Positions 32,618-55,300 of a stretch of DNA of 64,000 nt are shown in pieces; the stretch's first letter is position 1; each line of letters opens with the position of its first letter. Both the position numbers and the translations under genes were made by a program. This DNA is from Cryphonectria parasitica EP155 (lineage: Eukaryota; Ascomycota; Sordariomycetes; Diaporthales; Cryphonectriaceae), in contig NW_024468910.1 in NCBI RefSeq assembly GCF_011745365.1, positions 1,144,068 to 1,208,067 of the forward strand. Reading direction: 5' to 3'. The notes beneath the pieces are model-generated. The model did not search any database. It saw only the letters and a list, made by a program, of their open reading frames with translations, and was not told the origin of the DNA.

Positions 32618-33284
32618 TGTTATGACCCATCCAACATGCAGGTCACGAAACAGGTCACGAGTAACAAGGACCAGGTGTCAAGAACCCGAACATTCTGACA
32701 AAGCACTGATTATATACCCAGTGTCAGGGCCGATTGTGCCAGCAAGGCTCAGGGCCAGCTAAGCCAGCTGGATTACGGATGACTAAGCAATATGCGGCTA
32801 TAAAGCGGCTTTCTAGCCACGTCAGCACTGCTGAGCAGAACTTAGCTCCTTAGGCCTCAATGTTATTCTGGTTGTATACCCCTGAAAGAGAGAAAAGACC
32901 TCGCCACATTGCCTTTGCAACCTTTCCACCTGACACCCAGGGTTAGGATTATAGGCACAGCCAATCAGGAAGGATAGCTTCGGATATGCGCTATCCAAAG
33001 CTAGCAGGATAACTTGGATATGTTGCTATTCTACATATCCATACCGAAGAGTCGGATATATAAGGATACGTTCATTACCATGAGAAAGATTCAGTACATA
33101 GCTCTTCAGTTGTCAATCTAAGTATCAGATTACCCTCTTACTCTGATAGCCCCAAAGGTAGTGAACACTTGCACGATTACTCAGTTGTGTTTCCGTATTC
33201 AAGGCCTGAACCTAGTACCGCTCTTGTTAGCATAAACCCCTTTGTGTACTTTGGAATCTTCGGATTGCTGCAGTGCTCATTACA
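32618..33284 (+). repeat. Gypsy-family LTR (about 448 bp) interrupted by a solo LTR-B
   Basis: Starts TGTTATGACCCATCCAACAT and ends GCTCATTACA. Removing 32722-32935 plus one CCCAG leaves about 448 bp. It has TATATAAGG and CTCTTCAGTTGTCAATC. Flanks (AGCAG before, AATGC after) do not match, as expected because the element behind it is deleted. Confidence 0.9.
32722..32935 (+). mobile_element. Solo LTR of element B, 214 bp
   Basis: Starts TGTCAGGGCCGATTG, ends TTTCCACCTGACA, flanked by CCCAG on both sides (32717-32721 and 32936-32940). Contains GGCTATAAAGCGG as a TATA-like box. Same sequence as 43487-43700 and, reversed, 60839-61052. Confidence 0.92.
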
Positions 33285-34880
33285 AATGCAATACTCAATC
33301 AAGATTTATCCAGATTATAAAAATCTAACTATATTTATAATAATTAAGATCTTGAATAAGTAACAAGTTAGATAAGCAGAGTTTCTTTTATAGTTCGATT
33401 TCAGGATTATATACTGCAAAAGCTTAGAAAATGGTTGAGCAGATACTCTTAGCAGAAGATTAGATTATTGGAATGTAGATTTCTTGGATATATAAAACAT
33501 CTTTATTTAAGATGAATCGAAGAATCTTATTAATGCATATAAAGAGCTGAATACTATCTTCAGAATCGGATCTTCAGGAAAAGATTCAAAATCAATAACT
33601 TTAGATAAATAAGACAGCTATATTAAGAATATATATAGTATATCAGCATATGAATACTAAGAAATCAAAGCAATCTATAAATGTATTAAAAAATATTAGA
33701 ACTTATTAAGCTTTAGAAAAAGAATTAAAAATCTTCTATAATAATGCAATAACTGCAAGAAAAACAAGGTAGAAAGATATAAGCTTTACAAACTATTACA
33801 TTTTTTATCAGTACTTACAACTATATAGCAATCCATTAGTTTAGATTTTATTATTAAGCTATCTCTCTAATAAGAACTCTTAACTAAAATGCAATATAAT
33901 AGCATTTTAGTAATAGTTTATAAACTAAGCAAGTATGCTTATTTTCTTCTCTATAAGAAAAGCAGTATAATAGAAGAACTTGTATATACATTTCTTAGAA
34001 TAATTATTGCTAATTACAGTATATTAGAAGAAGTAATTTCTAATAGAAACAGAAAGTTTAATTCAAAGTTTTAAACTTTGCTTATAAAACAGCTTAGAAT
34101 ATACTACAGAATATTTACAGTATTTTACTTGCAAACAAATAAACAAATGGAAAGAATAAATCAGATTATCGAATAGTATCTTTAATACTATATTAACCAA
34201 GAATAGAATAATTAAGTTAATCTATTACTTCTTATATAATTCGCATATAATAGTGCAGATATAAGCATAATAAAGAAATTACTATTCTTTATATTCTATA
34301 GATATAATTCAATAGCTTACTATAAAATACTGCTAGAAGCAAATGCAGAAACTGCAAATAAAAAAGTTAAAAAGATTAAGAAAGTTTAGAAAGAATTCTA
34401 GTTAGAACTATAATTTATCCAGAAATAGATAATGCAGTATGCAAACTCCAAGAAAATTGAAAGATTAATCCTACAGAAGAAAGATAAGATCTATTTACTT
34501 CGAAAAAATATTAAAATAACTAAGCTTAATAGTAAACTCAATTACAAGAAATTGGAATTATTCAAAATCTTGCAATAGATTTCTCTAATTAATTATAAAT
34601 TAATACTACTTTATAGAATGAGAATATACTCAGTATTTTACATCTTACTGCTAGAATCAGTAGTATAGAAAATACTAACAAATAATACAATAGAAGTAGA
34701 AAATAATAAATCAGAGTATAAGATTGAAAAAATTCTTAAGTACAGAAGTACAAACAATATGCAAGAATATTTTATTAAATAGAAAGATTATCTAGCAAGC
34801 GAGAATTTATAGAAACTATAGGAAAATGTTAAAAATGCTCGGGAAAAGATAGCTGAGTATTGGAAAAAGAAAATCAGCAC
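33285..34880 (+). pseudogene. Deleted gypsy pol fragment (RNase H end, integrase, chromodomain)
   Basis: Directly after the LTR the sequence matches E1 from about 40613 on, beginning in RNase H (AAAAATCTAACTATATT). It continues through the integrase core (33889-34074; SILVIVYKLSKYAYF, EEVISNRNRKFNSKF) to a chromodomain remnant ending GCACCTAAGAAG at about 34880. Gag, protease and RT are deleted. It is the most AT-rich copy, with stops every few codons. The expected catalytic Asp of the second integrase motif (SDRD) is Asn. Confidence 0.8.
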
Positions 34881-35250
34881 CTAAGAAGATCGCTTCGCTC
34901 CGGAATAAGAATCAGGCGCTACAACTTCACTTAAAATACTATCCCAATCCACTACATCAAGAGCATCCCAAGACTAAGCCTCAGCTACAGCTTCAGATTC
35001 AGCAGCACGCTAAGCATCCTCCTCTTAACGCTCCTTCTCCTTCAGCTCATTCAGAGAACGCAGACTCTAACTAACTATCTTTGCGCTACAATCATACAAG
35101 GAACATTTCTGTTTTTGCAAATGCATCAGACGAGCTGTTGCTTTATCTAGTTTGAACTAAAGCTCAAGAAGAACTTCCTCCGCATTTAACTCCTCTCAAT
35201 CTAAACAACCAAGCTCGATAATAATGCAAGATACTACCATAGGAGTCAGG
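34880..35250 (-). pseudogene. Antisense accessory gene of the gypsy family, fourth copy, degraded
   Basis: On the minus strand the frame reads a coiled coil (EELNAEEVLLEL, then ATARLMHLQKQK), then LRSLNELKEKER and an acidic tail ending WDALDVVDWDSIL. This has the same order as the better copies at 42190-42816 and 46387-47002. Several stops occur. The Cys-rich N-terminus could not be followed. Confidence 0.55.
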
Positions 35251-35940: not shown

Positions 35941-36386
35941 TGTTATGACCCATCCAACATGCAGGTCACAGAACAGGTCACGAGTAACAGGGACCAGGTG
36001 TCAAGGATTCAACGTCCTGACAAAGCATCGATTACATAACTCAGGGTTAGGGTTATTAGCGGATAGATACAGTCGACGTCTATCCCGTCGATGAAGGAAT
36101 CGATGGAGTCGACATCGATCCTATCTATCCGAACTGGAGAACCAAGTATATAAAGGTTTACATTTCCTACTGTTAGATAGATTTCCTTCAGATAGTTCTT
36201 CAGTTGTCAATCTAAGTATCAGACTACTCGCTACTCTGATAGCCCCAAAGGCAGTGAACACTTGCATCGCTTACTGGGACTTGTACGGTTCCGTATTCAA
36301 GAACTTGGCACTTTGACACCGCTCTTGTTAGCATAAACCCCCTTTGTATACTTTGGAATCTTCGGATTGCTGCAGTGCTCATTACA
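35941..36386 (+). repeat. 5' LTR of E1
   Basis: TG...CA ends. A GGGTTAGGGTTA telomere-like motif lies at about 36043-36054. TATATAAA at 36147-36154 is the likely promoter; the transcript start is expected about 50 bp on, near 36202. U3 contains the short palindrome GTCGAC twice. Confidence 0.93.
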
Positions 36387-36388
36387 TT

Positions 36389-36397
36389 TTGACAACT
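36389..36397 (+). promoter_or_regulatory. Self-priming primer-binding site of E1
   Basis: TTGACAACT just inside the 5' LTR is the exact complement of AGTTGTCAA at 36202-36210 in the same LTR, close to the predicted RNA start. No TGG-type tRNA primer site is present. A TCTTG-TT-CAAGA hairpin follows. In E2 and E3 the site is the same apart from transitions. Tf1/sushi-group chromoviruses are known to self-prime in this way. Confidence 0.65.
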
Positions 36398-36446
36398 CTT
36401 GTTCAAGAACGATTCAGTATTACCTTCTTGAGCAATACGGAACACG

Positions 36447-38546
36447 ATAGCTCCTTCAGGAACCTCTTCATTCTCATGCGCCTCTACTCAGGAAGAACTG
36501 GTTAATCAGGTGTATCAGCTTATCCAGCATATCCAGGATCTGTGCGAATAACAGCAGGCTCAGAGCGCTATCATTGCTAACTAACAAGCTCAGCTAGCCT
36601 AATAGGCTCAGCAGGCGCAGTCTATCTCTGCAATCATCAGTAGCGCTGGAAAAGTATACAAAATAAACAAGCTCGCTATATATAATAGCAACCAAAAGAC
36701 GCTGCATGGATTCCTTATCCACTGCAGAGCGTATTTTCTATACTACAAGACTCAGTTTATCAAGGAATCTGAGAAAGTTATTCTTGCAGAAACTTGTTTC
36801 GAAAAGAATGCTCTTATCTAGTACAAGCCTTCTCTATACAATCACTTGGAGCATCAGAACAACCCCGATGTATATATCCAGGATATCAAGAATATATTTA
36901 ATTCTTTTGAAAGCTTTAAGAAAGCTCTCAAGAAAACCTTTAGTAATTCCAACGAAGAATGTATTACAGCTCAGCAGCTTATGAACCTCAAGCAGATTAA
37001 ATTAGCTTCTGCTTATATAGTTAGATTCAAGCAATTCTCAATGCAACTTCTATAGAAAGATAAGAATCTTATAAAGCATTATTATAAGGAATTTAAGAAT
37101 AATATTAAAGATGAAATTTTTAAGCAGAATTAGCTGAAGAACTTTGCAATATTCTCTAATTAAGCTATCTGCATTAATAACTATTTGTATAAATAATGAA
37201 TAGAGAAATTTAAGAAGAAAGGAAGCTAGACTTGGAGATTTCCAGCTAATATGAGTAAGAAACTTCAAAACAAGAATAGCGGTTAATATAGCAGTATAGC
37301 TTAGAGCAGCACTATGCATACTGGTTCCATAGAACTCGATATAGCTAACAAGCAGTATAGCAAGAGGAATAATATCACTTACTATAACTACAATAAACAA
37401 GAATACATAGCATACAACTGCTATCAACTCTGAAAAAACAAATAGCAACCAGTTCAGGAAGAATGCTAAGTAAATATTGCTCAGCAATAGGAATCCAATC
37501 AACTAAGCAAAAACATTCCCTTGGAACAAATATCGGACTCTGTTAATCATAGAAGTCTCAGCTAAATATTCTGCTATAATAACAACTGCTTAATATATCT
37601 CTCGAGTAAGGAAGGTTCAGAATAGTTCTCTTAGAAATCTAGATGCTGCAGACAAATAGCAACAGCAGAACGAGAGTGCATGCTCAGCACTCTTACAAGT
37701 AGCAACTCGGACTGCTCTGATATTGCAGAATAGAGCATTCAGACGTTGAAAGAAGAGCTTAATAATAATATTCTTTAATATTCTTCATTGCTTATACTAA
37801 ATACTATAATCAGAGATATGAATAAGGGATAGTACTCTCTTAGTTACTAGTACAAATACATAAACGATACTGAAAATGCTTTTCAAGCAACGAAAGAATC
37901 AAACCAGAGTAAATAGCTTAACGATTCATCAGAATCTCTCATAAACAATGAACTCAAAAAGCTTATAAGAAGGTTTCCCTTCGGTATTAGATGAAACAAG
38001 AAAATAACATGAATTGAATATCTTATTTATAGGATAGAATTAGAGAAGCTCTTTACCTGCATTCCCTTGCAGAACATTGAGATATAAGAAAATAAGAACT
38101 CTCAAATCAGCTTACTTCACAACCTACACTACGAATTAGCATGGATCTCCTGCACCTATTATAGCTATAGAACGCATTTCTCAGAAAAAGTGCAATACGA
38201 ATAGTTCCCCATTAGAAAACTAGAACAAATCCTTCAAGCTGTTGAAGAACAGAAACTCCGCTTCAGGAAAGTTCTCAACAGGCAATACTACAATGCATAT
38301 ATCGGGCTACTGGATGATTGCTCCATGCAATGCGCAGATAAAAAGATAGAGTGATAGCAGTATAAGATAATACTCTGCATAATTCATATCAATAACAAAG
38401 TTTGCAACTAGCATTAATAGAAGGAAGACTAGGAATAATAATGATACGAGCAAAGGCAAGCTAAGAAGCTTGCTCAAGAAGCAGCAAAGCAGGCTCAGAA
38501 GAACAAATAGTTCTCAATGAATTCAAAAGAACAGGATTGCTTGTAA
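36447..38546 (+). pseudogene. gag: E1 gag
   Basis: The start codon is ATA here (ATG lost by G-to-A). The frame to the TAA at 38544-38546 is about 699 codons, interrupted by many stops. It shows a Gln-rich coiled N-terminus, the capsid-type segment (36846-37055: EHQNNPDVYIQDIKNIF, AQQLMNLKQIKLASAY) and a damaged CCHC zinc knuckle near 37380-37430 (YNYNKQEYIAYNCY-like, Cys to Tyr). Gag packages the RNA and forms the particle. Pol lies in the -1 frame. Confidence 0.8.
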
Positions 38547-41500
38547 AGGAATTGCAGATGATTAGATCAGAACAGTTCCTATATAAAGCTTTCAGAATAG
38601 ATTATACTCATATTAAGTTCAACATATACATTCAAGAATATAAGTATAGCATACTATTGAATAGTAGCGCTCAGAAAAACTTTATATTCTTATATATTAT
38701 CAATCAGACATAATTACAATAGAGATAGAAGAAATGCTTATATACTTTCAGCACTATAGAAGAATAATCTGTTGCATACAACTAAGGAATAATTAATAAG
38801 GAAACTAATTATCTATCTATCTTAATCTGAGAATATGTAATCAGAGCTTCTTTTGATATTATGAATACAGCATAGTATGAGCTGATTATAGAGCTTCCAT
38901 GGCTCAAAGAGCACAATTCTCGAATTAATTGAATTACTGGCTAGATCTTATAAGAACAAGCTATATCCAGAGAAATAGTTGTAATTAATGATGCAGGATT
39001 GAAGCTAGTTATTGAAGAATACTCGGAAAAAGAAGCTTCAGATAACTTCATACATACCTTCAAGTCAGCAGAGCTAGCAGTTCAAGGAGAAGAACCTAGT
39101 AACAAGCAAATCCAAACAGTGCTAGAGCGCCAACAGGTTAGCAAAACAACGGAAGCAAGACCCTCAGCAAGTCAGTTCGCTCTGGAGCAATAAGGAAAAG
39201 CTTCAGAATGTGGATTGTAAATCTACACGGGAAAAATCTCGAAACCAGGCTCTCGAGCGCTCGATCCGGCTCGGAGCGAACGCTCAAGGCTCCCAAAAAC
39301 GCTATCAAAAACAACGAGCGAAAAGAAGCACGCTCAACAATACCTACTATTTCTCCAGATAGCAGAAACAGCATATGGATCAGAACTAACACTTGCAAGC
39401 ATACTACGAGAATATCACAAGTTTAAGAAACTATTTTAGAAAGAATTGAATACAGAGTTGCTAGAATACAGCTCATACAACCACGAGATCCTGCTATAAG
39501 AAGAGAAACAGCTCAAGTTCTTTCCTATCTACGAACTAGATAAAGCATAGCTAGAAATACTTAGGAAGTATCTCGATAAGAATCTTAAGAAAGAATACAT
39601 ATAATCATTACAATTATCAGCAGAATACTCTATTCTATTTATATCTAAGAAAAACAGCAAGCTCAGGCTATATATTGATTACAGGCAATTCAATGATATT
39701 ACAATTAAGAACTGATATCCGTTGCTACTTATTAAGGAATTATAAGATAGATTACAAGGAGCATAGTAGTTCATAGTTCTAAATCTAAAAGGAGCTTATA
39801 ATCTAATCAGAGTAAAGAAAGAAGAAGAATAGAAAACTGCTTTCAGAATACGCTATGGATACTACGAATATTTGATTATACTCTTTGGTCTAACGAATGC
39901 TTCAGCTTCATTCCAGGAAATGATTAATCATGTTCTATGCAAGCATCTGAATCAGTTCATTATTGCTTATCTCGATAACATTCTTATCTACTCTCGAATA
40001 CTTGAAGAATACAAGAAATATATGAAAACAGTGTTGCAAACGCTTCAAGATGCAAAGCTTCTTGTAGAACCCGCAAAGAATTACTTTCACATACAAAAGA
40101 TCAATTACTTCGAATTTACAATCAAGCTAGGGTGCATTAAGCTACAGAAAGATAAGATGGAAGCTGTTAGGAACTAGCTAATTCCTAGGAATATTAGGAA
40201 TATTAAATCTTTTCTCGAATACATCAACTTCTACAAACAGTTCATTAAGAACTATAGCTGAATCGCATACTCTCTTACAAATCTTACTAAGAAAGAATAG
40301 CCTTTCGAATAGATCTCCAAGGCGCAAGAAGCTTTCAACGAGATCATCAGGCATGTTACTTTAGAACCAGTTCTGTATGAAGCAGATCCTCACAAACCTT
40401 TTGAAATTGAAACTGATGCATCAGAATATGCACTCAGGAGACAACTTGGTTAGCAAGATGACTAAGAATGTTTAAGAATTATAAGCAACTTTTCGAAGAA
40501 GCTGAATAAGCTAGAAGTTAATTACAGAATCCCTAATTAGAAGCTTATAGCAATAGTAAAAGCTTTTAAGGAATAGCAATACTATCTTATTAGCATACAG
40601 CACCTGATCATAGTGCACTTAGATTACAAAAATCTAACTATATTCATAATGATCAAAGTTTTGAACAAACAATAAATCAAATAAGCAGAATTTCTTTTAC
40701 AATTCAACTTCAGAATTGTATACTGCAAAGGCTCAGAAAACGGACGAGCAGATGCTCTTAGCAGAAGATCAGACTATCGAAATACAGATTCCTCGGATAT
40801 ACAGAACATCTTTGCCCAAGACGAATCGGGAAACCTCGTTAATATACATAGAGAACTGAATGCTGCCTTCAGAATTGAATCTTCAGGAAAAGACTTAGAA
40901 TCAATAACTCCAGACGAATAAAACAACTATATTAAGAATGTATACAGTACACCAGCATACGGATATCAGAAAGTCAGAGCAACTTACGAATGCATTAGAA
41001 AACACTAAAGTTTACTAAGCCTTAGGAAAAGAATTGAGAATATCCTATAGCAATGCAACAGCTGCAAAAAGAATAAGGCAGAAAGATACAAGCTTTATAA
41101 ATTACTGCATCTCTTACTAGTACTTACAACTATTTAGCAGTCTATCAGTCTAAACTTTATTATCAAGCTACCTTTCTCACGAGAATTCTTAACTAAGATA
41201 CAATATAATAGCATTCTAGTAATGGTTTGCAAACTGAGCAAATATGCTTATTTTCTTTCTTATAAGGAAAGCAGTATAGCAGAGAAACTTGCATATACAT
41301 TCCTCAGAACGATCATTGCTAATTATAGCATACTAGAGGAAGTAATCTCCGATAGAGATAGAAAGTTCAATTCGAAGTTTTGAACTTTGCTTATAAAATA
41401 GCTCGGAATACATTACAGAATGTTTACAGTATTTCATCTACAAATAGATGAACAGATAGAAAGAATGAATTAAGTTGTTAAACAGTATTTTCGATACTAT

Positions 41501-42193
41501 ATCAACTAGGAATAGAATAACTGGATTAATCTATTATTCCTCGCACAGTTCGCTTATAATAATACAAATACGAGTATAACGAAGAAATCACTGTTCTTTA
41601 CACTCTACGAATACAATCTAACAGCTTACTACAAAGCACTGCTAGAAGCAGATGCAGAAGCTGCAGACAAAAGAGTTAAAAAGATCAGGAAAGTTCAGAA
41701 GGAATTCCGATTAGAATTACAATTTGTTCAAGAACAAATAATACGATATGCAAACTTCAAAAGAATTGAGGAACTAATCCTACAGAAAGGAAATAAAGCT
41801 TACTTACTTTGAAAAAACATTAAAACAACTAAACCCAGCAATAAACTTGATTACAAAAAGTTGGGACTATTCAAAATCTTACAATAAATCTCCCCGATTA
41901 ACTACGAATTAGCATTACCTCATGGAATAAGAATACACCCGGTTTTCCACATCTCACTACTGAAACCAGCAGCATAGAAAACATCAACGGATGATACAGC
42001 AGAAGTAGAAAATAACGAACCAGAGTATGAGATAGAGAAGATCTTCAAGCATAGAGGTATAGACAATACAAGAGAATATCTCATCAAATGGAAAGATTAC
42101 TCAGCAAGCGAAAATTCTTGGAAACTGCAGAAAAACGTTAAAAATGCTCAGGAAAAGGTAGCTGAATATTGGAAAAGGAAAACCAGCACCTAA
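38512..42193 (+). pseudogene. pol: E1 pol (protease, RT, RNase H, integrase, chromodomain)
   Basis: The protease motif reads LLNSS where LxDSG/DSA is normal (about 38657). RT carries the LRLYIDYRQFND-like block and YLDN (39968-39979) instead of YLDD. RNase H lies near 40400-40760. The integrase has a zinc-finger remnant (CNSCKKNKAE) and core (EEVISDRDRKFNSKF near 41365). Its final part has VFHIS and a chromodomain (EYLIKWKDYSASENSWK, 42081-42125), which in chromoviruses reads histone marks to guide integration. The final TAA (42191-42193) overlaps the stop of the antisense gene. Confidence 0.85.
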
Positions 42194-42816
42194 GACGATC
42201 GCTCCGCCCCGGACCGAGATCCAGGGCCCTCAGAAACCTCGCTCTCCAGGAAACCCGACCAATCTACCACTGCATTCCCCACGTCCACGGAATTCCAGTC
42301 AAAACCCTCAAAAGAAGAATCTTCAGCAACCACAGCAGATTCCTCTGCAACCACAGAACGAACCCCGGCAGCGATGCGAGCCCGCTTCTCCGCCTCCACC
42401 CTTTCCAACTCCTTCACATTGTTAATACCCCGACGAACGGCACGCATCATCTTTTCGTACCACATCCTTTTCTGCTTACGCAGCCTAAGGAGTTTAGCAT
42501 TCAGCTCAGCAGCCTCCTCTTCAATCACCTCCACCTCTGCCTCCAGGCAACAGTATTAAGCGGTCATACGATTCAATTGTGCAGACGTTAGGCTACGAAC
42601 ATCGCAATTCGATAAACTCAGACGTACACAGGTCTGACAACGGGAAGATTCGGACTCGGCAACCTTGCACTCAGCTGAAAGATTGTGATCTTCGCAGTAT
42701 GAGCAAGGCATGGGCGAAAGAGAACTGAAGGTGGCCACGGCAGAAAGAAGGGACGATTTCTGCGAAGAACGAGAATAAGGCTTAGCAACACGACGAGAAC
42801 TGACTCTGTTCGACAT
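42190..42816 (-). pseudogene. Antisense accessory gene of E1: zinc-cluster-like plus coiled coil
   Basis: The minus-strand frame from ATG 42816 (MSNRVSSRRV) is open to 42190 except one TAA (42558-42556) where CAA fits; about 208 residues. An earlier ATG at 42885 is in frame, but copies differ there by indels and share a GTAAGT, so it is likely leader or intron. Cys pattern C-x2-C-x8-C-x9-C-x2-C-x7-C resembles a fungal Zn2Cys6 cluster. It is followed by a coiled coil (EEEAAELNAKLLRLRKQKR), a linker and a Ser/acidic tail (FEGFDWNSVDVGNAVVDW). Its stop overlaps the pol stop tail to tail. Homologous frames occur in E2, E3 and the 33-35 kb fragment. It may be transcribed from the 3' LTR side; function unknown. 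Confidence 0.75.
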
Positions 42817-42906
42817 CTCGATTAGGAAGGCAAGATCATGGACGGAAGATTTGCTAGGGTACTTACGAAAGATCGTTGGGGACAATGACTGATAGGAGGG
42901 AGATGA

Positions 42907-43352
42907 TGTTATGATCCATCCAACATGCAGGTCACAGAACAGGTCATGAGTAACAGGGATCAGGTGTCAAGGATTCAACGTCCTGATAAAGCATCGATTA
43001 TATAACCCAGGGTTAGGGTTATTAGCGGATAGATACAGTCAACGTCTATCCCGTTGATAAAGGAATCGATGGAGTCGATATCGATCCTATCTATCCGGAC
43101 TGGAGAACCAAGTATATGAAGGTTTACATTTCCTACTGTTAGATAGATTTCCTTCAGATAGTTCTTCAGTTGTCAATCTAAGTATCAGACTACTTGCTAC
43201 TCTGATAGCCCCAAAGGCAGTGAACACTTGCATCGCTTACTGGGACTTGTATGGTTCCGTATTCAAGGACTTGGCACTTTGACACCGCTCTTGTTAGCAT
43301 AAACCCCCTTTGTGTACTTTGGAATCTTCGGATTGCTGCAGTGCTCATTACA
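42907..43352 (+). repeat. 3' LTR of E1
   Basis: 446 bp, preceded by the polypurine tract AGGAGGGAGATGA and followed by TTAGG. Relative to the 5' LTR it shows mostly C-to-T changes (for example GACCCATCC to GATCCATCC). Confidence 0.93.
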
Positions 43353-43486: not shown

Positions 43487-43702
43487 TGTTAGGGCCGATT
43501 GTGCCAGCAAGGCTCAGAGCCAGCTAAGCCAGCTGGATTACGGATGACTAAGCAATATGCGGCTATAAAGCGGCTTTCTAGCTATATCAGCACTGCTGAG
43601 CAGAACTTAGCTCCTTAGGCTTCAATGTTATTCTGGTTGTATGCCCCTGAAAGAGAGAAAAGATCTCGCTACATTGCCTTTGCAACCTTTTCACCTGATA
43701 GT

Positions 43703-43711
43703 TTGAGGCTT
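43703..43711 (+). promoter_or_regulatory. Possible self-priming site of element B
   Basis: TTGAGGCTT directly after LTR-B complements AGGCCTCAA in LTR-B (AGGCTTCAA in this copy, 43617-43625), allowing for C/T changes. The latter lies about 45 bp downstream of the TATAAAG box. This is the same layout as in the gypsy family. Confidence 0.45.
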
Positions 43712-43826
43712 AGCCCTTTTAAAGGAGGCAATCTAGCGAGGCTTTCTATCTTTTTTTTCTCCTAGGAGCAGCGCTAATACTGAGTAGGAGCAGAGCAAAC
43801 GATCAGACTACTATTTTTTTTCGAAT

Positions 43827-43940
43827 CTTCAAGCCTTTAATCTTCGAGCTTTTAATCTTCGAGCCTTTAATCTTCGAGCCTTTAACCTTCGAGCCTTTGA
43901 TCTTCGAGCTTTTAATCTTCGAGCTTTCGATTTTCGAACT
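43827..43940 (+). repeat. 15-bp tandem repeat
   Basis: Seven to eight units of AGCCTTTAATCTTCG with transitions between units. Confidence 0.9.
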
Positions 43941-43956
43941 TTCGAGCTTTGAAGAC

Positions 43957-44366
43957 AGCGAGCAAGCAGTGTGCAAGCAGCGTGCGAGAAGCGTTCAGAA
44001 GAGATTCAGAGCACTCGAGTCGCTAGGCTAGAGCAAATAGCGAGCAAGCAGTATGCAAGCAGCATGCGAGAAGCATTCAGAAGAGATTCAGAGCATTCGA
44101 GTCGCTAAGCTAGAGCAAACAGCGAGCAAGCAGTATGCAAGCAGCATGCGAAAAGCGTTCAGAAGAGAGTTAGAGCATTCGAGTTGCTAAGCTAGAGCAA
44201 ATAGCAAGCAAGCAGTATGCAAGCAGCATGCGAGAAGCATTCAGAAGAGATTTAGAGCATTCGAGTTGCTAAGCTAGAGCAAACAGCGAGCAAGCAGTAT
44301 ACAAGCAGCATGCAAAAAGCGTTCAGAAGAGATTCAGAGCATTCGAGTTGCTAAGCTAGAACAAAG
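43957..44366 (+). repeat. 82-bp tandem repeat, five units
   Basis: Units start at 43957, 44039, 44121, 44203 and 44285, each beginning AGCGAGCAAGCAGT and ending near GCTAGAGCAAA. Differences between units are mostly C/T and G/A. Confidence 0.93.
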
Positions 44367-44377
44367 TATGCTCTTTG

Positions 44378-44670
44378 CTATTCGAGCAAGAGAGCAGAGT
44401 GAGCAAGCAGCAGATCTGAGTGTTTTCTGTTTTCGAGAGTGCATCTTTCGCTATTCGAGCAAGGAAGCAGAGTAAGCAAGCAGTAGATCTGAGTATCTTC
44501 TGTTTTCGAGAGTATATTCTTTGCTATTCGAGTGAGAGAGCAAAGTGAGCAAGCAGTAGATCTGAGTATCTTCTGTTTTCGAAAGTATATTTTTTGCTAT
44601 TCAAGCAAGAGAGCAGAGTGAGCAAGCAGTAGATCTGAGTATCTTCTGTTTTTGAGAGTATATTCTTTGC
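44378..44670 (+). repeat. 73-bp tandem repeat, about four units
   Basis: Units carry GCTATTCGAGCAAGAGAGC, GATCTGAGTATCTTCTG and TTTTCGAGAGTATATTC. The array follows directly after the 82-bp array. Confidence 0.85.
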
Positions 44671-45079
44671 TATTTAAGTAAGAGCATAGAGCTAAAGCGG
44701 AGTATCTGCTTAGCAACTGAAGTTGCTTAGATATTAGATTGCGAACTAATTACTTTTCTATATCTAGCAGTAAAACGAAGCATAGCAATAGCTTCAGAGT
44801 TGCTAGAGAGCAACTCTTAAGATAGAAAGCTGTAATTATTCGTTATAGCTATAGAAATGCTATTCTGAATGCTAAGCTTCTTAGCTGCAAATCAAGTTCC
44901 TAATGAAAGGCTTGCAATCTACATCAAATAGCTTTAAGTTCTGAAGAATATCTGAATAAAGCGCTGAGAGAGCAGCAACTGAGCAGCGTATATAGCGTGG
45001 ATATTGTACTCGGAAGATTTACGTTTGGAATGTGATTAAAAAGAGATTTTTTTTTTCACAGGCTTCGGGAACGAAGCTA

Positions 45080-45640
45080 GAAGAGAAGGAGGGAGATGGT
45101 TGAGAGGCTTTGAGAGGCTTGAGGCACTGAGAGATCTTGAGAAGCTTTGAGAAGCCTGAGACTCTGAAAGGCTTTGAGAAGCCTGAAGCACTGAGAGATC
45201 TTGAGAGACCTTGAGTGGCTTAGAAGCCTGAGGCACTGAGAGATCTTGAGAAGCCTTAAGAGGCCTGAAGCACTGAGAGACCTTGAGAAGCCTTGAGAGG
45301 CTTGAGGCACTGAGAGACCTTGAGAGACCTTGAGAGGCCTGAGGCACTGAGAGATCTTGAGAGGCCTTGAGAGGCCTGAGGCACTGAGAGACCTTGAGAA
45401 ACCTTGAGTGGCTTAGAAGCCTGAGGCACTGAGAGATCTTGAGAGGCTTTGAGAAACCTGAGGCACTGAGGGATCTTGAGAAGCTTTGAGAAGCCTGAAG
45501 CACTGAGAGATCTTAAGAGCCTGAAGCATTGAGAAGGAGTAGGAGCAGCTAGGAAGCAGCGAAAGCCTGGAAGCAACGGAAGCCTGGGAGCAACGGAAGC
45601 CTGGAAGCAACGAAAGCTTAGAAGCCTCAAAGGCCTTGAG
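45080..45640. repeat. Degenerate minisatellite (GAGAGATCTTGAGAAGCCT type) plus 18-bp array
   Basis: Many variants of CTGAGGCACTGAGAGATCTT fill 45100-45515. Four units of about 18 bp (GGAAGCAACGGAAGCCT) lie near 45560-45620. Minus-strand frames of up to 155 codons here are repetitive Ser/Gln/Leu artefacts of the array. Confidence 0.85.
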
Positions 45641-45830
45641 AACAAGGCCTGATAAGAGGGAACAATCTGTCAGAGCCGATTGTGCTAGCAAGGCTCAGAG
45701 CCAGCTAAGCCAGCTGGATTACGGATGACTAAGCAATATGCGGCTATAAAGCGGCTTTCTAGCCACGTCAGCACTGCTGAGCAGAACTTAGCTCCTTAGG
45801 CCTCAATGTTATTCTGGTTGTATGCCCCTG

Positions 45831-46284
45831 TGTAATGAGCACTGCAGCAATCCGAAGATTCCTAAGTACACGAAGGGGTTTATGCTAACAAGAGCGATAT
45901 CAAAGTATCAAGTCCTTGAATACGGAACCGTACAAGTCTTAATAAGCGATGCAAGTGTTCACTGCCTTTGGAGCTATCAGAGTTGAGAGTAATCTGATAC
46001 TTAGATTGACAACTGAAGAGCTATGTACTGAATCTATCTAATAGTAATGAACGTTTGCTTATATATTCAGCTCTTCAGTATGGCTTGTTGGGATCGCTGG
46101 CAAGCTTAGCGATCCAAGGTGTGAAGCTCGTCAGGATCGCTAGCGAGCCCAGCGATCCTTTCTTCTTTACAATCTTAATCCTGGGTTATGTAATCAATGT
46201 TTTGTCAGAACGTTGGATTCTTGATACCTGGTTCTTATTACTCGTGATCTGTTTTGTAATCTGCATGTTGGATGGATTATAACA
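45831..46284 (-). repeat. 3' LTR of E3
   Basis: Reverse orientation. U3 contains two copies of a near-palindrome of the type GGATCGCTxGCGAGCxxAGCGATCC. Confidence 0.93.
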
Positions 46285-46386
46285 TCATTTCCCTTCTATC
46301 AGTCGTTGTTCTCAACGATCTTCTGTAAGTATTCTAGCAAGTTTCCGTATTCATGATCTTGCCTTCCTAATTGAGATGTTGAATAG

Positions 46387-47002
46387 GATTAATAAAGTTG
46401 CGAAACTGAAATCTTCGAATTCTCGTTCTAACAAAAAGAAACAGAAAGACTTCCTTCTTCAGTTCATTCTCTTAAACAGTTTCGATATGCGTTCCTGTTC
46501 TTATTGCAATAGTTGGGGCCTGTAATCGTATATCGTTTCTTCTTACGATTCGTTCCGTTGCTCGGAGTGCGTTTTCCAGAATCGTGCTAAGTGTAACGTT
46601 CTGGAACTGATAAACGCTGCTGAACTTCTCTTTATCTCTATTCAATATCGAAAGCTGAAGGATAAGATAGAAGAGTTGGAGTTAAAGTTGCTTTGATTGC
46701 ATTAATAAAAGAAGATGTGGCGTGAAAGGATGTCTCGAGCTATTTATCGAAGCTTTACGAATCTCGAAGAGCTTGAGAAAGAGAAAGCTGAGAAGGCTGA
46801 GGCTGAGAGAGTGCATGTTGCTGCTGAAATGCAGGCTATAGTAGCTGAGGAATCTGCTGTTGCAGCTGGGGATTCTTCTTTTGAGGGTTTTGATTGGAAT
46901 TCTGTAGATTTGGGGAATTCTGTGGTTAATTGATCGGATTTCCTGGAGAATAAGATCTCCGAAGCTCCTGGATCTCGGTTTGGGGCGGAGCGATCATTCT
47001 AG
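46387..47002 (+). pseudogene. Antisense accessory gene of E3, degraded
   Basis: Here the gene is on the plus strand because E3 is reversed. The frame from about 46387 reads basic residues (KSSNSRSNKKKQK), CSYC, later FRCSECVFQNRAKC, a coil (YRKLKDKIEELELKLL), and after stops MWRERMSRAIYRSFTNLEEL (46715 on) and SSFEGFDWNSVDLGNSVVN. The final TAG (47000-47002) again overlaps the pol stop. Cys spacing C-x2-C-x7-C of the second half matches E1. Confidence 0.65.
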
Positions 47003-48188
47003 GTGCTGGCTTTTCTTTTCCAATATTCAGCTACCTTTTTCTGAGCATTTTCAACGTTTTTTCGTAGTTTCTACGAATTCTTGCTTGCTGGATAACCTTT
47101 TCACTTGATGAGGTACTCCCTTGTATTATCTATGCTTCTGTGCTTAAGGATTTTCTCTACCTCGTATTCTAGCTCGTTATTTTCTATTTCTGCTGTATTA
47201 TCCACTGATACTTCCTATGCTGCTGATTTCAGCAGTAAGATGTGAAATACTGAATATATTCTCATCTTGTAAGATAATGCTAACTTGTAATTAACTGAGA
47301 AAATTTGTTGCAAGATTTTGAATGATTCCAACTTCTTATAATCGAGTTTGTTGCTAGGCTTGATTATTTTAATGTTTTTCCGAAGTAGATAGATCTTATC
47401 TCCTTTCTATAGAATTGATCTTTCAATCCTTTTGGAGTTTGCATATTGCATTATTCGTTTTTGAATGAATTGTAATTCTGATCAGAATTTCTTCCAAACT
47501 TTCTTAATCTTTTTAACTTTTTCATCTGCAGTTTCTGCATTTGCTTCTAGCAGTGCTTTATAATAAGTTGTTAGATTGTATTTATAGAGTATAAAGAATA
47601 ATAATTTCTTTATTATACTTGTATTTGCGCTATTATAAGCGAACTATATAAGAAGTAATAGATTAATTCAGTTATTCTGTTTCTGATTGATATAGTATTA
47701 AAAGTATTATTTAATAACTTGATTTATTCTTTTTATCTATTTATCTGTTTGTAAATGAAATGCTATAGATATTCTATAGTATATTCTAAGCTATTTTATA
47801 AGTAAAGTTCAGAACTTTGAGTTGAACTTTCTATCTTTATTAGAGATTACTTCTTCTGATATACTATAGTTAGCAATAATCATTCTGAGGAATGCATATA
47901 CAAGTTCTTCTGCTATACTGCTTTTCTTATAAGAAAGAAAGTAAGTATACTTGCTCAATCTGCAAACTATTACTAGAATGCTATTATATTGCATCTTAGT
48001 TAAGAGTTCTTATAAGAGAAATAGCTTGATAATAAAATCTAAACTAATGAATTGCTAAATAGTTATAGATATTAGTAAGAAATGTAATAATTTGTAAAGC
48101 TTATATCTTTTTGCTTTATTCTTCTTGCAGCTGTTGTATTGTTATAGGATATTCTTAATTCTTTTTCTAAAGCTTAGTAAACTCTAGT
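46999..48188 (-). pseudogene. pol: E3 pol, 3' part (integrase, chromodomain)
   Basis: Minus-strand continuation of the pol frame interrupted by E2. The integrase core (47994-47809) reads SILVIVCRLSKYTYF and ISNKDRKFNSKF, with Asp to Asn in the second catalytic motif. The chromodomain end lies near 47110-47020. Confidence 0.8.
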
Positions 48189-48642
48189 TGTTATGACCCA
48201 TCCAACATGCAGGTCACGAAACAGATCACGAGCAACAAGGACCAGGTGTCAAGAACCCAACGTTCTGACAAAGCATTGATTACATAACCTAGGAAGGAGA
48301 TAGGGATGGATTACTAGGAGCACCAGGAGCGCGGCTCACTAGGCTCACCCGGATCACCGCGGTGATCCGCAAGACGCTGCCAGACAGTGATCCATACTGA
48401 AGAGCTGAATATATAAGAACACAGTTATTACCATTAGAAGGATTCAGTACATAGCTCTTCAGTTGTGAATCTAAGTATTCAGTCTTCTATATTGAGTAGC
48501 TTCAAAGGCAGTGAATACTTGCATCGCTTATTAGGACTTGTATGATTCCGTATTTAAGAACTTGATACTTTGATACTGCTCTTGTTAGCATAAATCCCTT
48601 CGTATACTTAGGAATCTTCGGATTGCTGCAATGCTTATTACA
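48189..48642 (+). repeat. 5' LTR of E2
   Basis: U3 has the perfect 18-bp palindrome GGATCACCGCGGTGATCC (about 48342-48359). A TATATAAG box follows at about 48408. Confidence 0.93.
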
Positions 48643-48701
48643 TTTTTACAACTCTTGTTCAAGAACAGTTCAGTATTATCCCTTGAGCAATACGGAATAC
48701 G

Positions 48702-50828
48702 ATAGCTTCTCCAGGAACTCCTTCGTCCTCGCGCGCCCCTACTCAGGAAGAACTGGTTAACTAGATGTATCAGCTTACCCAGCGTATCCAGGACCTGCGC
48801 GAACAACAGCAGGCCCAAAGCGCTACCATCGCTAACCAGCAGGCCCAGCTAGCCCAACAGGCTCAGCAGGCCCAGCTAGCCTAACAAGCTCAGCAGGCGC
48901 AGTCCATCTCCGCAGTCATCAGTGGTGCTGGAAAGGCATACAAGATGGATAAGCTCGCTATGTACAACAGCAACCAGAAGATGCTATATGGGTTCCTTAC
49001 TCACTGCAGGGCGTACTTTTTGCATTATGCAATTCAGTTTATTATGGAATCTGAGAAAGTTATTTTAGCAGGAACTCGTTTCGAAAAGAATGCTCTTATT
49101 TAGTATGAATCTTCTCTGCGCAATTACTTGGAGCATTAGAACAATTCCAGCGCGCATATTCAGGATATCAAGAATATATTCGATTCTTTTGAAGGCTTCG
49201 AGAAAGCTTTCAAAGAGATCTTTGATGATTCCAACGAAGAACATACTACAGCTCAGCAGCTTATGAATCTCAAACAGACCAAGTCAGCTTCTGCTTACAC
49301 AATTAGATTCAAGCAACTCTCAGCGTAACTTCCGTAGGAAGATAAGAATCTCATAAAATACTATTACAAGGGACTCAAGGATAATGTTAAAGATGAAATC
49401 TCCAAGCAGGATTGGCTGGAGAACTTCGCAACGTTCTCTAATCAAGCTATCCGCATCAACAACTGTCTATACAAACAATGGATGAAGAAGTTCAAGAAGA
49501 GAGGAAGCTAGACTTGGAGATTTCCAGCTAATACAGGCAAGAAACTCCAAAACAAGAATAGCGATCGATATGGCAGTACAGCTCAGAGCAGCACTACGCA
49601 TGCCAGTTCTATGAAACTCAATGCAGCTAATAGGCAGTATAGCAAGAAGAATAGTATTACTTGCTATAACTGCAATAAATAAGAACACATCGCATGCAAC
49701 TGCTATTAATCTCAGAAGAACAAGTAGCAACCAGTTCAGGAAGAACGCCAGGTAAATATTGCTTGATAACAGAAACCTAATCAACTGAGCAAAAACACCC
49801 TCTCGAAGCAAGTATCGGACTCTATTAACTACGGAAGTCTCAGCTAGACATTCTGCTATAATGATAACTGCTTAATATACCTCTCGAGTAAGGAAGGTTC
49901 AGGATGGTTCTCTTAGAAACCTAGGCGCTGCAGACAAATAGCAACAGCAGAACGAGGGTGCATGCCCAGCACTCCCACGAGTAGCAACTCGGACTGCTCT
50001 AACATCGTGGAACAGAGCATTCAGGCGTTGGAAGAAGGGCTTAGCAATGATATCCTTCAACATTCTTCATCGCTTACGCCAAGCACTATAACCAGGGACA
50101 TGAATAAGGGATGATACTCTCTTGGCTACTGGTACGAACATCTAGGCGACATAGAGAACGCTTCTCAGGCAACAGAAAGATCAAGCCAGAGCAAACAACC
50201 TAGCAGCTTGCAGAAGCTCTCTGCGAACAACATGCTCAACAAGCCTAAAGGAAAGTTCTCCTTCAACATTAGGTAGAACAAGAAAACAACATGGATTAAA
50301 TATCTCATCTATAGAATAGAACTAGAGAAGCTCTTTATTTGCATCTCCTTGCAGAACATCAAGATACAAGAAGATAAGAATCCTCGAATCAGCCCACTTC
50401 ACAACCTACATTACGAACTAGCTTGGATCTCCTGCACCTATCATAGCTGCAGAACGCATTTCTCAGACAAGATGCAATACGAATAATTCCCCATCAGAGA
50501 ACCAGAGCAAATCCTTTAGGCTGTTGAAAAACAGAAACTCCGCTTTAGAGAGATTCTCAACAAATAATACTACAACGCGTACATCGGGCTACCAGATGAT
50601 TGCCCCATGCAATATATAAACAAGAAGATAAAATAGTAGCAGTACAAAACAACACTCTGCACGATTCACATTAACAACAAAGTTCGCAACTAGCATTAAC
50701 AGAAGAAAGACTAGAAATAACAACGATACAGGCAAAAACAAGCTAAGAAGCTTGCTCAAGAAGCAGCGAAGCAGGCTCAGAAGGATAAGCAGTTCTCAAT
50801 AAACTCAAAAGAACAGAATTGCCTGTAA
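48702..50828 (+). pseudogene. gag: E2 gag
   Basis: 708-codon frame from ATA (former ATG) to the TAA at 50826-50828. Order: Pro/Ser-rich start, a Gln-rich coiled stretch with repeated QQAQLAQQAQ, the gag domain (GFLTHCRAYFLHY to EISKQDWLENFATF) and the CCHC knuckle CYNCNK-x-EHIACNC (49660-49702), complete except for a nonsense codon inside. About 25 stops at CAG, CAA, TGG or CGA positions. The knuckle binds the RNA genome. Confidence 0.85.
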
Positions 50829-53800
50829 AGAAACTGCAAACGATCAGACCAGAACAGTCCCTATATAGAGCTTTCAAAACAGATTACGCTTACATCAAGT
50901 TCGATATATATATTCAAGAATACAAGTACAGCGCACTATTGAATAGTAGCATCCAGAGAAACTTCATATCCCTATACATCATCAATCAGGCACAACTACA
51001 ATGGAGATGGAAGAGATGCTCATATACCCTCAGCACCGTAAAAGAACAACCTGTTGCATACAACCAAGAAATAATCAATAAGAAGACTGATCATCTACCT
51101 ATCTTGATCCAAGAACGCGCAATCAGAGCTTCTTTTGATATCACAGATATAGCATAACATAAGCTGATTATAGAGCTTTCATAGCTCAAAGAATACAATC
51201 CTCGAATCGATTGGGCTACTGGCTAGATCTTATAAGAACAAGCTGTACCCAGAGAGATAATCACAATCAACGGCGTAGGATCGAAGCCAGTGGTTGAAGA
51301 ATACTCAGGAAAAGAAGCTTCACACGACTTCATACATACTTCCAAGTCAGCAGGGCTGGCAGTTCAAGGAGAAGGATCTAGTAACAGGCAAACCCAAACA
51401 GTGCCAGAGCGCCAACAGGTTAGCAAAACAACGGAAGCGAGACCCTCAGCAAGTTGGTCCGCCCCGGAGCGACAAGGAAAGGCTTCAGAAAGTGGATTGT
51501 GAATCCACACGGGAAAAACCTCGAAACCAGGCCCTCGAGCGCTCGGTCCAGCCCGGAGCGAACGCTCAAGGCTCTCAAAAACGTTACCAAAAACAACGAA
51601 CGAAAAGAAGCACGCTCAACAGTACCTACTGTTCCTCCAGGTAGCAGAAACAGCACAAGAATCAGAACCAACACTCGCAAACATACCACAAGAATATCAC
51701 AAGTTTAAGAAACTATTCCAGAAAGAATTGGATACAGGATTGCCAGAATACAGCTCATACAACTACAAGATTCCGCTACAAGAAGGGAAACAGCCCAAAT
51801 TCTTCCCCATCTACAGACTAAACAAGGTACAGCTAGAAGCACTTCAGGAGTACCTCAACAAGAATCTTAAGAAAGAATATATACAACTATTGCGATCATC
51901 AGCAGAATACCCCATCCTGTTTATACCCAAGAAAAACAGCAAGCTCAGGCTATGTATTGATTACAGGCAACTTAACGATATTACAATTAAGAATCAATAT
52001 CCGTTACTACTCATCAAGGAACTACGAGATAGATTGCAAGAAGCATAATAGTTTACAGTTCTAGATCTAAAAAAAGCTTACAATCTGATCAGAGTAAAGG
52101 AAGGAGAAGAATGGAAAACTGCCTTCAGAACGCGCTATAGACACTACGAATATTTGGTTATGCTCTTCAGCTTAACGAACGCCCCAGCTTTGTTTCAGAA
52201 GATGATCAATCACGTTCTACGCGAGCACCTGAACCAGTTCATCATCGCATACCTCGATAATATCCTTATTTACTCTCGAATACTTGAAGAATATAAGAAA
52301 CATATGGAAACAGTGCTGCAGACGCTCCAAGATGCAAAACTCCTTGTAAAACCTGCAAAGAATCACTTTTACGAATAAAAGATTAACTACCTCGGATTCA
52401 CAATCGAGCCAGAATGCATTAAGCTACAGAAAAACAAGATAGAAGCTATCAGAAATTAGCCAGTTCTTAGGAATATCAGGGATATTAGATCTTTCCTCGG
52501 ATACATCAACTTCTACAAGCAGTTCATTAAGAACTACAGCTGGATCGCACATCCCCTTACAAATCTCACCAAAAAGAAGCAGCTCTTCGAATAGAATCCC
52601 AAGGCGCAAGAAGCCTTCAACAAGATCATCAGGCATATTACCTCAGAGCCAATTCTGTATAAAGCAAACCCTTATAAACTCTTTGAAGTTGAGACTAATG
52701 CATTAGAATATGCATTCGGAGAACAACTTAGCTAGCGAGATGATCAAGGATATCTAAGAATTGTAAGCAACTTCTCAAAAAAGTTGAATAGCTCGGAAAT
52801 CAACTACAGAATCTCTAATCAGGAACTCATAGCAATAGTGAAGACCTTCGAGGAATAGCAATACTATCTTATCAGCGCATAATACCCGATTATAGTTCAC
52901 TCAGATCACAAGAATCTAACTACATTCATAACAATCAAGGTTTTGAATAAGCAATAAGTTAGATGGGCAGAATTCCTCTTACAATTCGACTTCAAGATTG
53001 TGCACTGCAAAAGCTTGGAAAATGGATAAGCAGACGCTCTCAGCAGAAAATCAGACTATCAAAATACAGATTCCTCGGATTTATAGAACATCTTCGCCTA
53101 AAACGAATCGGGAAATCTTGTTAATGCATATAGAGAACTGAATGCTGCTTTCAGGATTGAACCCTCGGAAAGAGATTCAGAATCAATGATTCCGAACGAA
53201 CAAGATAACTACATCAAGAATATATACAGTATACCAGCACACAGGCATCAGAGAATCAGAGCAACCTACAAATGCATTAAAAGATACTGGAACCCACCAG
53301 ATCTTAGGAAAAGAATTAAGAGCATCCTACAACAATGCAACAGCTGCAAGAAGAATAAAGCAGAAAGATACAAGCCTTACAGACTACTACATTCCTTATC
53401 AGTACTTATAACTATTTAGCAATCCATCAGTCTAAACTTTATTACCAAGCTACCTCTCTTATAAGAATCCTTAACTAAGATGCAATATAATAGCATTTTA
53501 GTAGTGATTTGCAAACTGAGCAAGTATGCTTACTTTCTCTCCTACAAGGAAAGCAGTACAGCAGAAGAACTTGTATATGCGTTCCTTAGAACGATCATTG
53601 CTAATCATGGCATGCTAGAAGAAGTAATCTCTAATAGAGATAGAAAGTTCAACTCGAAATTTTGAACTTCATTCATAAAACAGCTCGGAACATACTACAG
53701 AATATCCACAGCATTCTATCTGCAGATAGATAAACAGATAGAAAGAATGAATCAGGTTATTGAACAGTATCTTCAATACTATATCAACCAGAAACAGGAT

Positions 53801-54475
53801 AACTGGATTAACCTGTTGCCCCTTACACAGTTTGCTTATAATAGCGCAGATACAAGCATGATAAAGAAGTTATCATTCTTCGTACTCTATAGATACAACT
53901 CAACAGCTTATCACGAAGCACTGCTAGGAGCAGATGCAGAAGCTGCGGATAAAAGGGTTAAGAAGATCAAGAAAGTTCAAGAGAAACTCCGATCAGAATT
54001 ACAATTCGTTCAAGAACGAATGACGCAGTATGCAAACTCCAAAAGAATTGAGAGACCAATCCTACAGGAAGGAGATAAGGCCTACCTACTTCGAAAAAAT
54101 ATCAAAACAACCAGATCCAGCAATAAACTCGATTACAAAAAGTTGGAACTATTCAAAATCTTGCAACAGATTTCTCCAGTTAACTACGAATTAGCATTAT
54201 CTCATAGGATAAGAATATACCCGGTTTTTCACGTCTTACTGCTGAAACTAGCAGTATAGGAAACACTAACAAACAATACAGCAGAAGTGGAAAACAATGA
54301 ATCAGAGTATAAGATAGAAAAGATCCTCAAGCACAGAGGCATAGACAACACAAGAGAATACCTCATCAAGTGAAAAGGTTACCCAGCAAGTGAAAACTCA
54401 TGGGAACCACGGAAGAATGTCGAAAACGCTCAGGAAAAGGTAGCTGAATATTGGAAAAGGAAAGCCAGCACCTAA
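50794..54475 (+). pseudogene. pol: E2 pol (protease, RT, RNase H, integrase, chromodomain)
   Basis: Begins in the -1 frame relative to gag. Protease: ALLNSS (50936 on) instead of [20 protein letters not shown] and YLDN (52250-52261). RNase H near 52650-52990. Integrase: zinc-finger part with CNSCKKNKAE (53337 on), LNFITKLP and ISNRDRKFNSKF, both catalytic Asp now Asn, and the third-motif region QIERMNQVIEQYL. Chromodomain REYLIK to NSWEPRKNVENAQEK (about 54355-54440). The final TAA at 54473-54475 overlaps the antisense stop. Confidence 0.88.
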
Positions 54476-55235: not shown

Positions 55236-55300
55236 ATGGAAAACTTATCAGAATACTTATGGAAGATCGTTAGGAACAACGATCGATAGAAGGGAGATGA

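Follow-up and report, generated by a model that had tools for sequence, protein, structure and literature searches.

Antisense zinc-cluster-like genes of a Ty3/gypsy family in Cryphonectria parasitica vary as types matched to a core of the long terminal repeat

Introduction

An extra antisense gene between pol and the 3' long terminal repeat (LTR) has been described in ascomycete Ty3/gypsy elements, namely brtn in the Boty-like elements of Botrytis cinerea (Zhao et al. 2011, doi 10.1016/j.virol.2011.06.020). The present work concerns a Ty3/gypsy family of Cryphonectria parasitica EP155 that carries an antisense gene in the same place, and copies of which lie in a window of 64,000 nucleotides (the whole stretch of DNA that was analysed; contig NW_024468910.1, positions 1,144,068 to 1,208,067). 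The gene itself was previously predicted (M406DRAFT_250526) and antisense genes in this place were already known as brtn; what is new here is the pattern of variation of the antisense gene. The likeness to brtn is drawn from position and strand, and the accessible part of the brtn account, unlike the present one, mentions no type-matched LTR targets. In plants, the antisense genes termed aORF-3R (Grande gene23, RIRE2, Retand, PvRetro13) have the same place and strand and a proposed regulatory role, and the source, as far as accessible, mentions no swapped module with a matched LTR target (PMC7264820); here the comparison is by description. The function of antisense accessory genes in LTR retrotransposons is presented there as an open question. 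The VANC proteins of VANDAL transposons “evolve together with their targets” (Hosaka 2017, PMC5735166) and, judging from the accessible text, resemble the case below as element-encoded, type-specific proteins co-evolving with motifs in their own element. They differ in belonging to a DNA transposon, in acting against silencing and in having tandem motifs as targets, and are likened in mode of action only.

Among fungal regulators, those of the Gal4 type combine a Cys6 head, a coiled coil and an acidic region, the same plan as that of the antisense protein, and the Zn2Cys6 binuclear cluster (PF00172) follows the pattern CX2CX6CX5-12CX2CX6-8C. Retroviral regulators of the LTR include the antisense-encoded HBZ of human T-cell leukaemia virus (HTLV) and the DNA-binding transactivator Tas of foamy viruses; both differ from the present proteins in belonging to other protein families, and we know of no swapped head-and-operator types for either. 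In lambdoid phages, the regulator and operators of the immunity region are exchanged as matched cassettes in a common genome, which differs from this element in being prokaryotic and in using other proteins. To our knowledge, no LTR element has been described as having private regulator and target types, and open-access literature searches returned no paper on LTR-matched antisense regulators among the matches listed. The pattern reported here is most probably explained by a dimeric, Gal4-like protein that the element encodes to regulate its LTR and that is exchanged together with its putative operator.

Results

In copy 2, the antisense gene lies on the minus strand at 42190-42816 and corresponds to the predicted protein M406DRAFT_250526 (P0001), which matches the frame either side of a modelled 33-nt intron. 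The gene comprises a variable module of type A (42361-42816, with a Cys cluster at about 42604-42705 and a coiled coil) and an acidic tail (42190-42360, FDWNSVDVGNAVVDWSGFL), the stop of which overlaps the pol stop at 42191-42193. Its translation begins with MSNRV, contains MPCSYCEDHNLSAECKVAESESSRCQTCVRLSLSNCDV, continues through the coil to the tail and holds one internal stop. A conserved leader with GTAAGT and CTAAT separates the antisense ATG from the 3' LTR (42817-42907, minus strand). Genes of type C and type E were located in copy 3 (46376-47002, plus strand) and copy 4 (54472-55208, minus strand), respectively. The preliminary description had proposed, for all four copies, a frame between pol and the 3' LTR with a Cys cluster (traceable in the full-length copies), a coiled coil and an FDWNSV tail, and this was borne out in copies 2, 3 and 4, as was the overlap of the antisense TAG with the pol stop in these three full-length copies. 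The copy 1 remnant (34880-35250, minus strand, by translation) retained coil and tail only, and the leader, module and tail queries gave no match in it.

Because repeat-induced point mutation (RIP) causes transitions only, divergence between copies was counted in transversions. The 73 genome loci and the three window copies yielded 63 distinct copies that had all of leader, module, tail and pol; of these, 57 had both LTR anchors and 61 had 800 nt or more of pol. The material comprised damaged copies of six types, one of them from the later sample below, in one host genome. The 63 copies are part of the family, as later protein searches scored 150 of 285-377 candidates, and the numbers of types and copies are lower bounds.

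Compared over gag-pol, copies 2 and 4 differed by 24 transversions in 5,722 aligned bases (0.4%), the remaining difference being RIP-type transitions. Over the whole element, both LTRs and the antisense gene stood out between these two copies, with transversions of 28-39% in module windows and 14-18% in LTR windows. When the last 2.4 kb of copy 2 were compared with copies 3 and 4 in sliding windows, most pol windows showed 0 transversions and two variable islands were revealed, the module and a part of the LTR, the second island being about 100 bp directly upstream of the sense TATA box.

Five module types, which differ by 14% or more in transversions, accounted for 62 of the 63 copies (B 21, E 14, D 14, A 10 and C 3), and one copy, L055, was an outlier. 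Types C and D were joined by blastn clustering and were split by module sequence and LTR block, so that the C/D label is not independent of the LTR. The type E module query also had distant matches in L055 and L057 (C12 and C16); L055, once cut, showed another module sequence and is perhaps a further type. For type-pair means, up to 40 pairs were sampled per type pair. Types A and E differed by 0.4% transversions in pol and 1.4% in the leader against 26.7% in the module, and types A and B by 1.6% in pol, 1.5% in the tail and 1.0% in the leader against 18.7% in the module; C and D taken together were a less clean case, with 5.5% in pol and 7.6% in the leader. Pol was shared (700 nt or more with at most 2 transversions) by 335 of 1399 different-type pairs, the modules of which were 14.7-31.8% apart. 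These results indicated that the divergence between copies reflects module replacement, not drift under selection. Divergence beyond RIP had earlier been taken as a sign of selection on the protein; purifying selection does find support in a codon-position bias (below), but the excess itself is uneven and limited to the antisense gene and one LTR patch, which points to replacement of a module.

The LTR island followed the type of the module. The variable core of copy 2 (type A) was found at 43019-43120 in the 3' LTR, with its counterpart in the 5' LTR at 36050-36144; that of copy 3 (type C) at 46071-46172, with its counterpart in the other LTR at 60606-60713; and that of copy 4 (type E) at 55413-55514 in the 3' LTR, followed by a sense TATATAA at 55523-55529. 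Sorted by module type, the cores were five unrelated sequences within common flanks. When whole LTR blocks were clustered by single linkage, all 57 copies merged, presumably because shared flanks dominate, and nearest neighbours and cores were compared instead. Module type agreed with that of the nearest neighbour by LTR block in 57 of 57 copies, compared with 18.1 by pol, 23.5 by leader (many ties) and 46.4 by tail (ties shared). L050, which has an odd LTR block, was included in this count and left out of the core comparison, where transversions among 56 copies did not exceed 0.051 within types and were never below 0.103 between them. None of 1178 between-type pairs stood at or under 0.02 in the core, as against 886 in the leader and 155 in the tail. 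Given this coupling and the sharing of pol across types, pol moves freely against the module, and the LTR core does not.

A later sample of ten more copies was placed by protein searches. Seven carried a known module (six C and one B), and the best core match was of the same type in 7/7. L099 and L101 shared a new module (0.5% transversions between them; L099 13% or more from A-E) together with a new core, in which they differed by 2% from each other and by 9.6% or more from A-E, and were assigned to a sixth type with its own core. L102 was more distant and stood alone. With this sample, our already fairly high confidence in a regulator exchanged with its operator rose very slightly.

The coupling might also be due to plain linkage, in which template switching moves the whole 3' end, module and U3 (the unique 3' region of the LTR) together, from older lineages, with LTR repeats that either are used by host factors or have no role. 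The two islands are about 200 bp apart at the same element end, both LTRs take their U3 from the 3' end of a single RNA during reverse transcription, and the intervening leader is too uniform to reveal exchange, all of which would suit this account. On the other side of the module, however, tail and pol have been shuffled against it at the same or a shorter distance, as the tail pairs at or under 2% illustrate, and a whole piece taken from lineages so old should have brought a diverged leader, contrary to the leader counts above. Linkage of this kind is accordingly considered improbable, and exchange of the module as a unit with its core is preferred.

Because the copies are damaged by RIP, the coding nature of the antisense frame was assessed from transversions by codon position in place of dN/dS. 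Between copies 2 and 4, the tails showed 5, 1 and 9 transversions at codon positions 1, 2 and 3. In tails of A/B versus D/E pairs, the values were 9.3, 8.6 and 20.2%, and in type D modules 0, 0 and 26 transversions (36 pairs), the pairs being not independent in either set. The antisense stop was TAG or TAA in 60/63 genome copies. All four window copies have in-frame stops, and the matched stretch was stop-free in some copies elsewhere in the genome. Type E modules further contained an antisense-strand intron, from a GTAAGT-type donor to TTAG, which restores the frame and was found by scan in 13/14 copies, with a near match by eye in the 14th (L051). The data support an antisense gene that is protein-coding, conserved and under purifying selection. 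A chance open frame opposite low-complexity sequence, in favour of which only the stops in all window copies could be brought, is refuted by this intron, by the codon-position bias and by 227 database relatives at E 1e-3 or better.

In copy 4, the spliceosomal-type intron measures 59 nt (54936-54994, minus strand), and the first base of its 5' splice site is RIP-changed. Four of the six NCBI type E models use the intron (P0122, P0123, P0124 and P0127), and P0125 and P0126 take another donor, P0126 being the model that reads like copy 4. The 33-nt intron modelled by NCBI in copy 2 was rejected as an annotation artefact, as the removed stretch holds an in-frame stop (42556-42558) and is coding in relatives. 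The leaders were compared at 42817-42907 (minus), 46284-46375 (plus) and 55209-55301 (minus) and in the 63 genome copies. GTAAGT was present in 47/63 leaders, and GTAAGT or a RIP-like form of it in 63/63; a CTAAT-like box occurred in 63/63, and CAG or TAG right after the ATG in 62/63. In L028, L060, L063, L066 and L070, the stretch between the signals differs and the signals are kept. The leader is a possible candidate for a 5' intron, the splicing of which would remove the ATG and use one in the LTR end.

The profile search returned 227 proteins at the threshold above, 120 of which were listed. Names among these 120 were Pyricularia, Colletotrichum, Cordyceps, Hirsutella, Beauveria, Metarhizium, Microdochium, Fusarium and Cytospora, besides many metagenome contigs, and no Botrytis name was among the 120 of 227 listed. 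The database relatives are presumably also antisense retroelement genes. A six-Cys pattern was present in 108/121 database proteins, mostly as CX2CX6-8C...CX2CX7C, with the spacing (2,7,9,2,7) in 85/108 and X6 as second gap in 18/108; by eye, the type E model P0124 reads CX2CX6CX8CX2CX6C. At the curated cut-off of Pfam Zn_clus (PF00172), the family was not placed: 2/30 members matched, the best at E 0.32, and among 9 further members only P0060 matched (E 8.8, 7 bits against a cut-off of 21). Matches to Pfam coiled-coil families were taken as a composition effect, a profile search of PDB sequences gave nothing useful (5 rows, best E 0.096), and in a scan of IMG/VR 140 stretches fitted the pattern, with 0 confirmed.

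The AlphaFold models of P0002 and P0032 (mean predicted local distance difference test, pLDDT, 79.9 and 80.8) showed short helices following each CXXC and one long helix. Foldseek against 350,542 PDB chains gave 1 and 4 rows at E 10 or better for the two models, and all 5 were Leu3 or Pho7 Zn2Cys6 zinc clusters with DNA, at weak scores; a second look with VIA likewise showed Zn2Cys6 rows at weak scores among those listed, namely HAP1 and 1cld, which we take to be LAC9. To judge by these weak PDB matches, the family may resemble fungal Zn2Cys6 regulators (Gal4, HAP1, Leu3, Pho7, LAC9) in fold; it differs in its mostly CX2CX7C head, in being retroelement-encoded and in falling below the Pfam cut-off. 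The zinc-cluster-like protein suggested by the preliminary description is supported by fold search, with weak scores. A protein acting on RNA, silencing or chromatin and not on LTR DNA, with LTR and module types as lineage marks only, would recall the plant antisense genes without known function, for which a regulatory protein or antisense-RNA silencing has been proposed in the accessible text (PMC7264820). We regard this as very unlikely, as the fold search returned only DNA-binding zinc clusters and the types are not reflected in the pol of those copies. A protein that binds LTR DNA is the preferred reading.

The cores of each type contained type-specific inverted repeats, given here as in the better kept copies. 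The type A core contains CGGATAGATA ... TATCTATCCG (43026-43035 and 43088-43097 in copy 2), type B GGATATGTTG-N5-CAACATATCC, type D GTTGACTATG-N2-CATAGTCAAC and the sixth type, in L099, CTGGATCAT-CTA-ATGATCCAG. In type C, the inverted repeat GGATCGCT-N9-AGCGATCC occurs twice (copy 3, 46091-46115 and 46134-46158), and the type E core holds CGGATCACCGCGGTGATCCG, with a perfect 20-bp palindrome in copy 4 (55462-55481; 5' LTR 48350-48369). The distance from the last repeat arm to the sense TATA-like box was 15, 16 and 25 bases in copies 2, 4 and 3. Support for the repeats was uneven, with exact repeats above shuffles in 16/57 copies and repeated 7-mers in 29/57. In the 43.8 Mb genome, the exact palindromes occurred at 14 sites for E and 7 for D, and the reversed controls at 0. 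Two of these 21 sites are the LTRs of copy 4; the remaining 19 were fetched, and flanks of the family's LTR were recognised at every one, at one D site from the R part only and at two sites from R together with short U3 matches. It had been proposed that the protein regulates the element or its host: the element is a plausible target, given the matched variation of a DNA-binding-like module and a patch of the LTR promoter, but host genes are not indicated, all 21 sites lying in LTRs of the family. A lone CGGATAGATA half-site was observed at 28120-28129, outside the four copies. The LTR of L102 (C6:2061460-2062360) contains GGATATGTT-N8-AACATATCC, with a half-site that is type B-like, and its head is also type B-like; perhaps like heads go with like sites.

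The age of the modules was evaluated by identity to proteins from elsewhere, in a comparison of ten rows. Type A modules showed 66-76% identity to P0002/P0005 and no more than 56% to the genome's other types; for type B, identity was 72-74% to P0036 and, in two of the three B copies, 62-64% to P0082 of Microdochium; type C modules were 59-70% identical to P0042/P0086. The type D module of L028 was 70% identical to P0047 and 67% to P0053 of Colletotrichum, and at most 56% inside the genome, and the more damaged D copy L037 reached 54% outside and 48% inside. P0002, P0036 and P0042 are not encoded in this genome, where their best identities were 63, 72 and 58% among the matches listed. For type E, the protein search yielded C. 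parasitica proteins only (6), so that the age comparison covers types A-D. P0005 and P0008 have near-identical tails and different heads. In a 22-row tree, the rows of which were chosen after a 122-row tree, a single clade was rejected both for the C. parasitica types (log-likelihood difference, dlnL, 101, p 4e-74) and for seven proteins belonging to a single tail group (dlnL 130, p 4e-11); in the approximately unbiased (AU) test on the 122-row tree, a single C. parasitica clade was not rejected (dlnL 46.6, p 0.146). These comparisons place modules A-D closer to outside proteins than to one another, and show them to be older than their background.

Old types kept side by side in this way suit a repressor, in which the same protein at the same LTR sites would let residents silence newcomers of their own type, as immunity or copy-number control. 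New types would then escape, rare types would gain and many old types would be kept, as with phage immunity regions or plasmid incompatibility groups; the joint change of head and target and the position of the sites beside the sense TATA box fit as well. The tails speak against it, for they are acidic and aromatic and resemble activation domains: an acidic-hydrophobic 12-mer, by our own rule, was present in 104/104 tails and in 75% of shuffled tails. A repressor is held to be a possible but distinctly less probable reading than a self-regulator in the wider sense. Activation is favoured by the acidic tail and by sites directly upstream of the TATA box, and repression by the many old types, which suggest escape from it; an activator is slightly preferred, and the direction is the point of the explanation of which we are least sure.

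Beyond the antisense gene, the features of a Ty3/gypsy element were found: LTRs, 5-bp target duplications (TTAGG, CTAGT), reverse transcriptase and an integrase with a Tf2-1-like SH3 domain. Pfam scans of element pieces gave RVT_1 at 3.9e-10 in copy 2 and SH3_Tf2-1 at 4.7e-13 in copy 4, and 3/6 pieces scanned had no match. Copy 2 spans 35941-43352 (duplication TTAGG), with gag-pol at 36425-42147 on the plus strand and RVT_1 at 39872-40177. Copy 4 (48189-55754) sits within the pol of copy 3 and is flanked by a CTAGT duplication (48184-48188 and 55755-55759), so that copy 3, on the minus strand, is split and has its far LTR at about 60.6-60.7 kb. An LTR at 33000-33285, adjoining the copy 1 remnant, has a type B-like core (GGATATGTTG...CTACATATCC). 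Tandem arrays of 82-, 73- and 37-bp units occupy 43487-45830, between copies 2 and 3, and are bounded by two 163-nt direct repeats, 96% alike. Element copies crowd on the window's contig (C2) at about 0.2-1.9 Mb, and 13/23 type E rows are on C2, 11 of these at 0.5-1.9 Mb; the C2 scaffold presumably holds the mating-type region with low recombination.

Discussion

The proposed mechanism is built from sequence and structure models. The antisense strand, from the 3' LTR side back to the pol stop, encodes a small protein with a six-Cys, binuclear-cluster-like, putatively DNA-binding head, a long pairing coiled coil and an acidic hydrophobic tail. We infer that this protein binds zinc, forms a dimer and binds DNA at LTR sites; the dimer most likely binds the inverted repeats in the LTR U3, between the sense TATA box and the antisense gene. 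Binding in the 5' LTR would set gag-pol transcription, and binding in the 3' LTR would set the transcription of the antisense gene itself. The predicted sites have the sense promoter on one side and the antisense gene on the other, an arrangement like that of a two-way switch, and heads and LTR cores are best read as regulator and operator. Head and target repeats form matched types, six of which were found, that would be exchanged as a unit into otherwise near-identical elements, and on this ground each type is proposed to regulate elements of its own type only.

Taken more broadly, antisense zinc-cluster regulators and their cognate palindromic LTR operators may constitute private types that can be interchanged, each recombining as a sealed unit through near-identical elements, and that have persisted across ascomycete genera as an old polymorphism, an immunity-type specificity in a eukaryotic retroelement. 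This wider reading is offered tentatively, our confidence in it falling somewhat short of even. Both a protein and its likely target are named by the sequence, from which a binding matrix of each head by each LTR core is predicted. If true, the finding would provide a natural set of head and site pairs for DNA recognition by zinc clusters. It would also mean that a single genome's retroelements fall into private regulatory groups, with a bearing on transposon competition and on escape from control.
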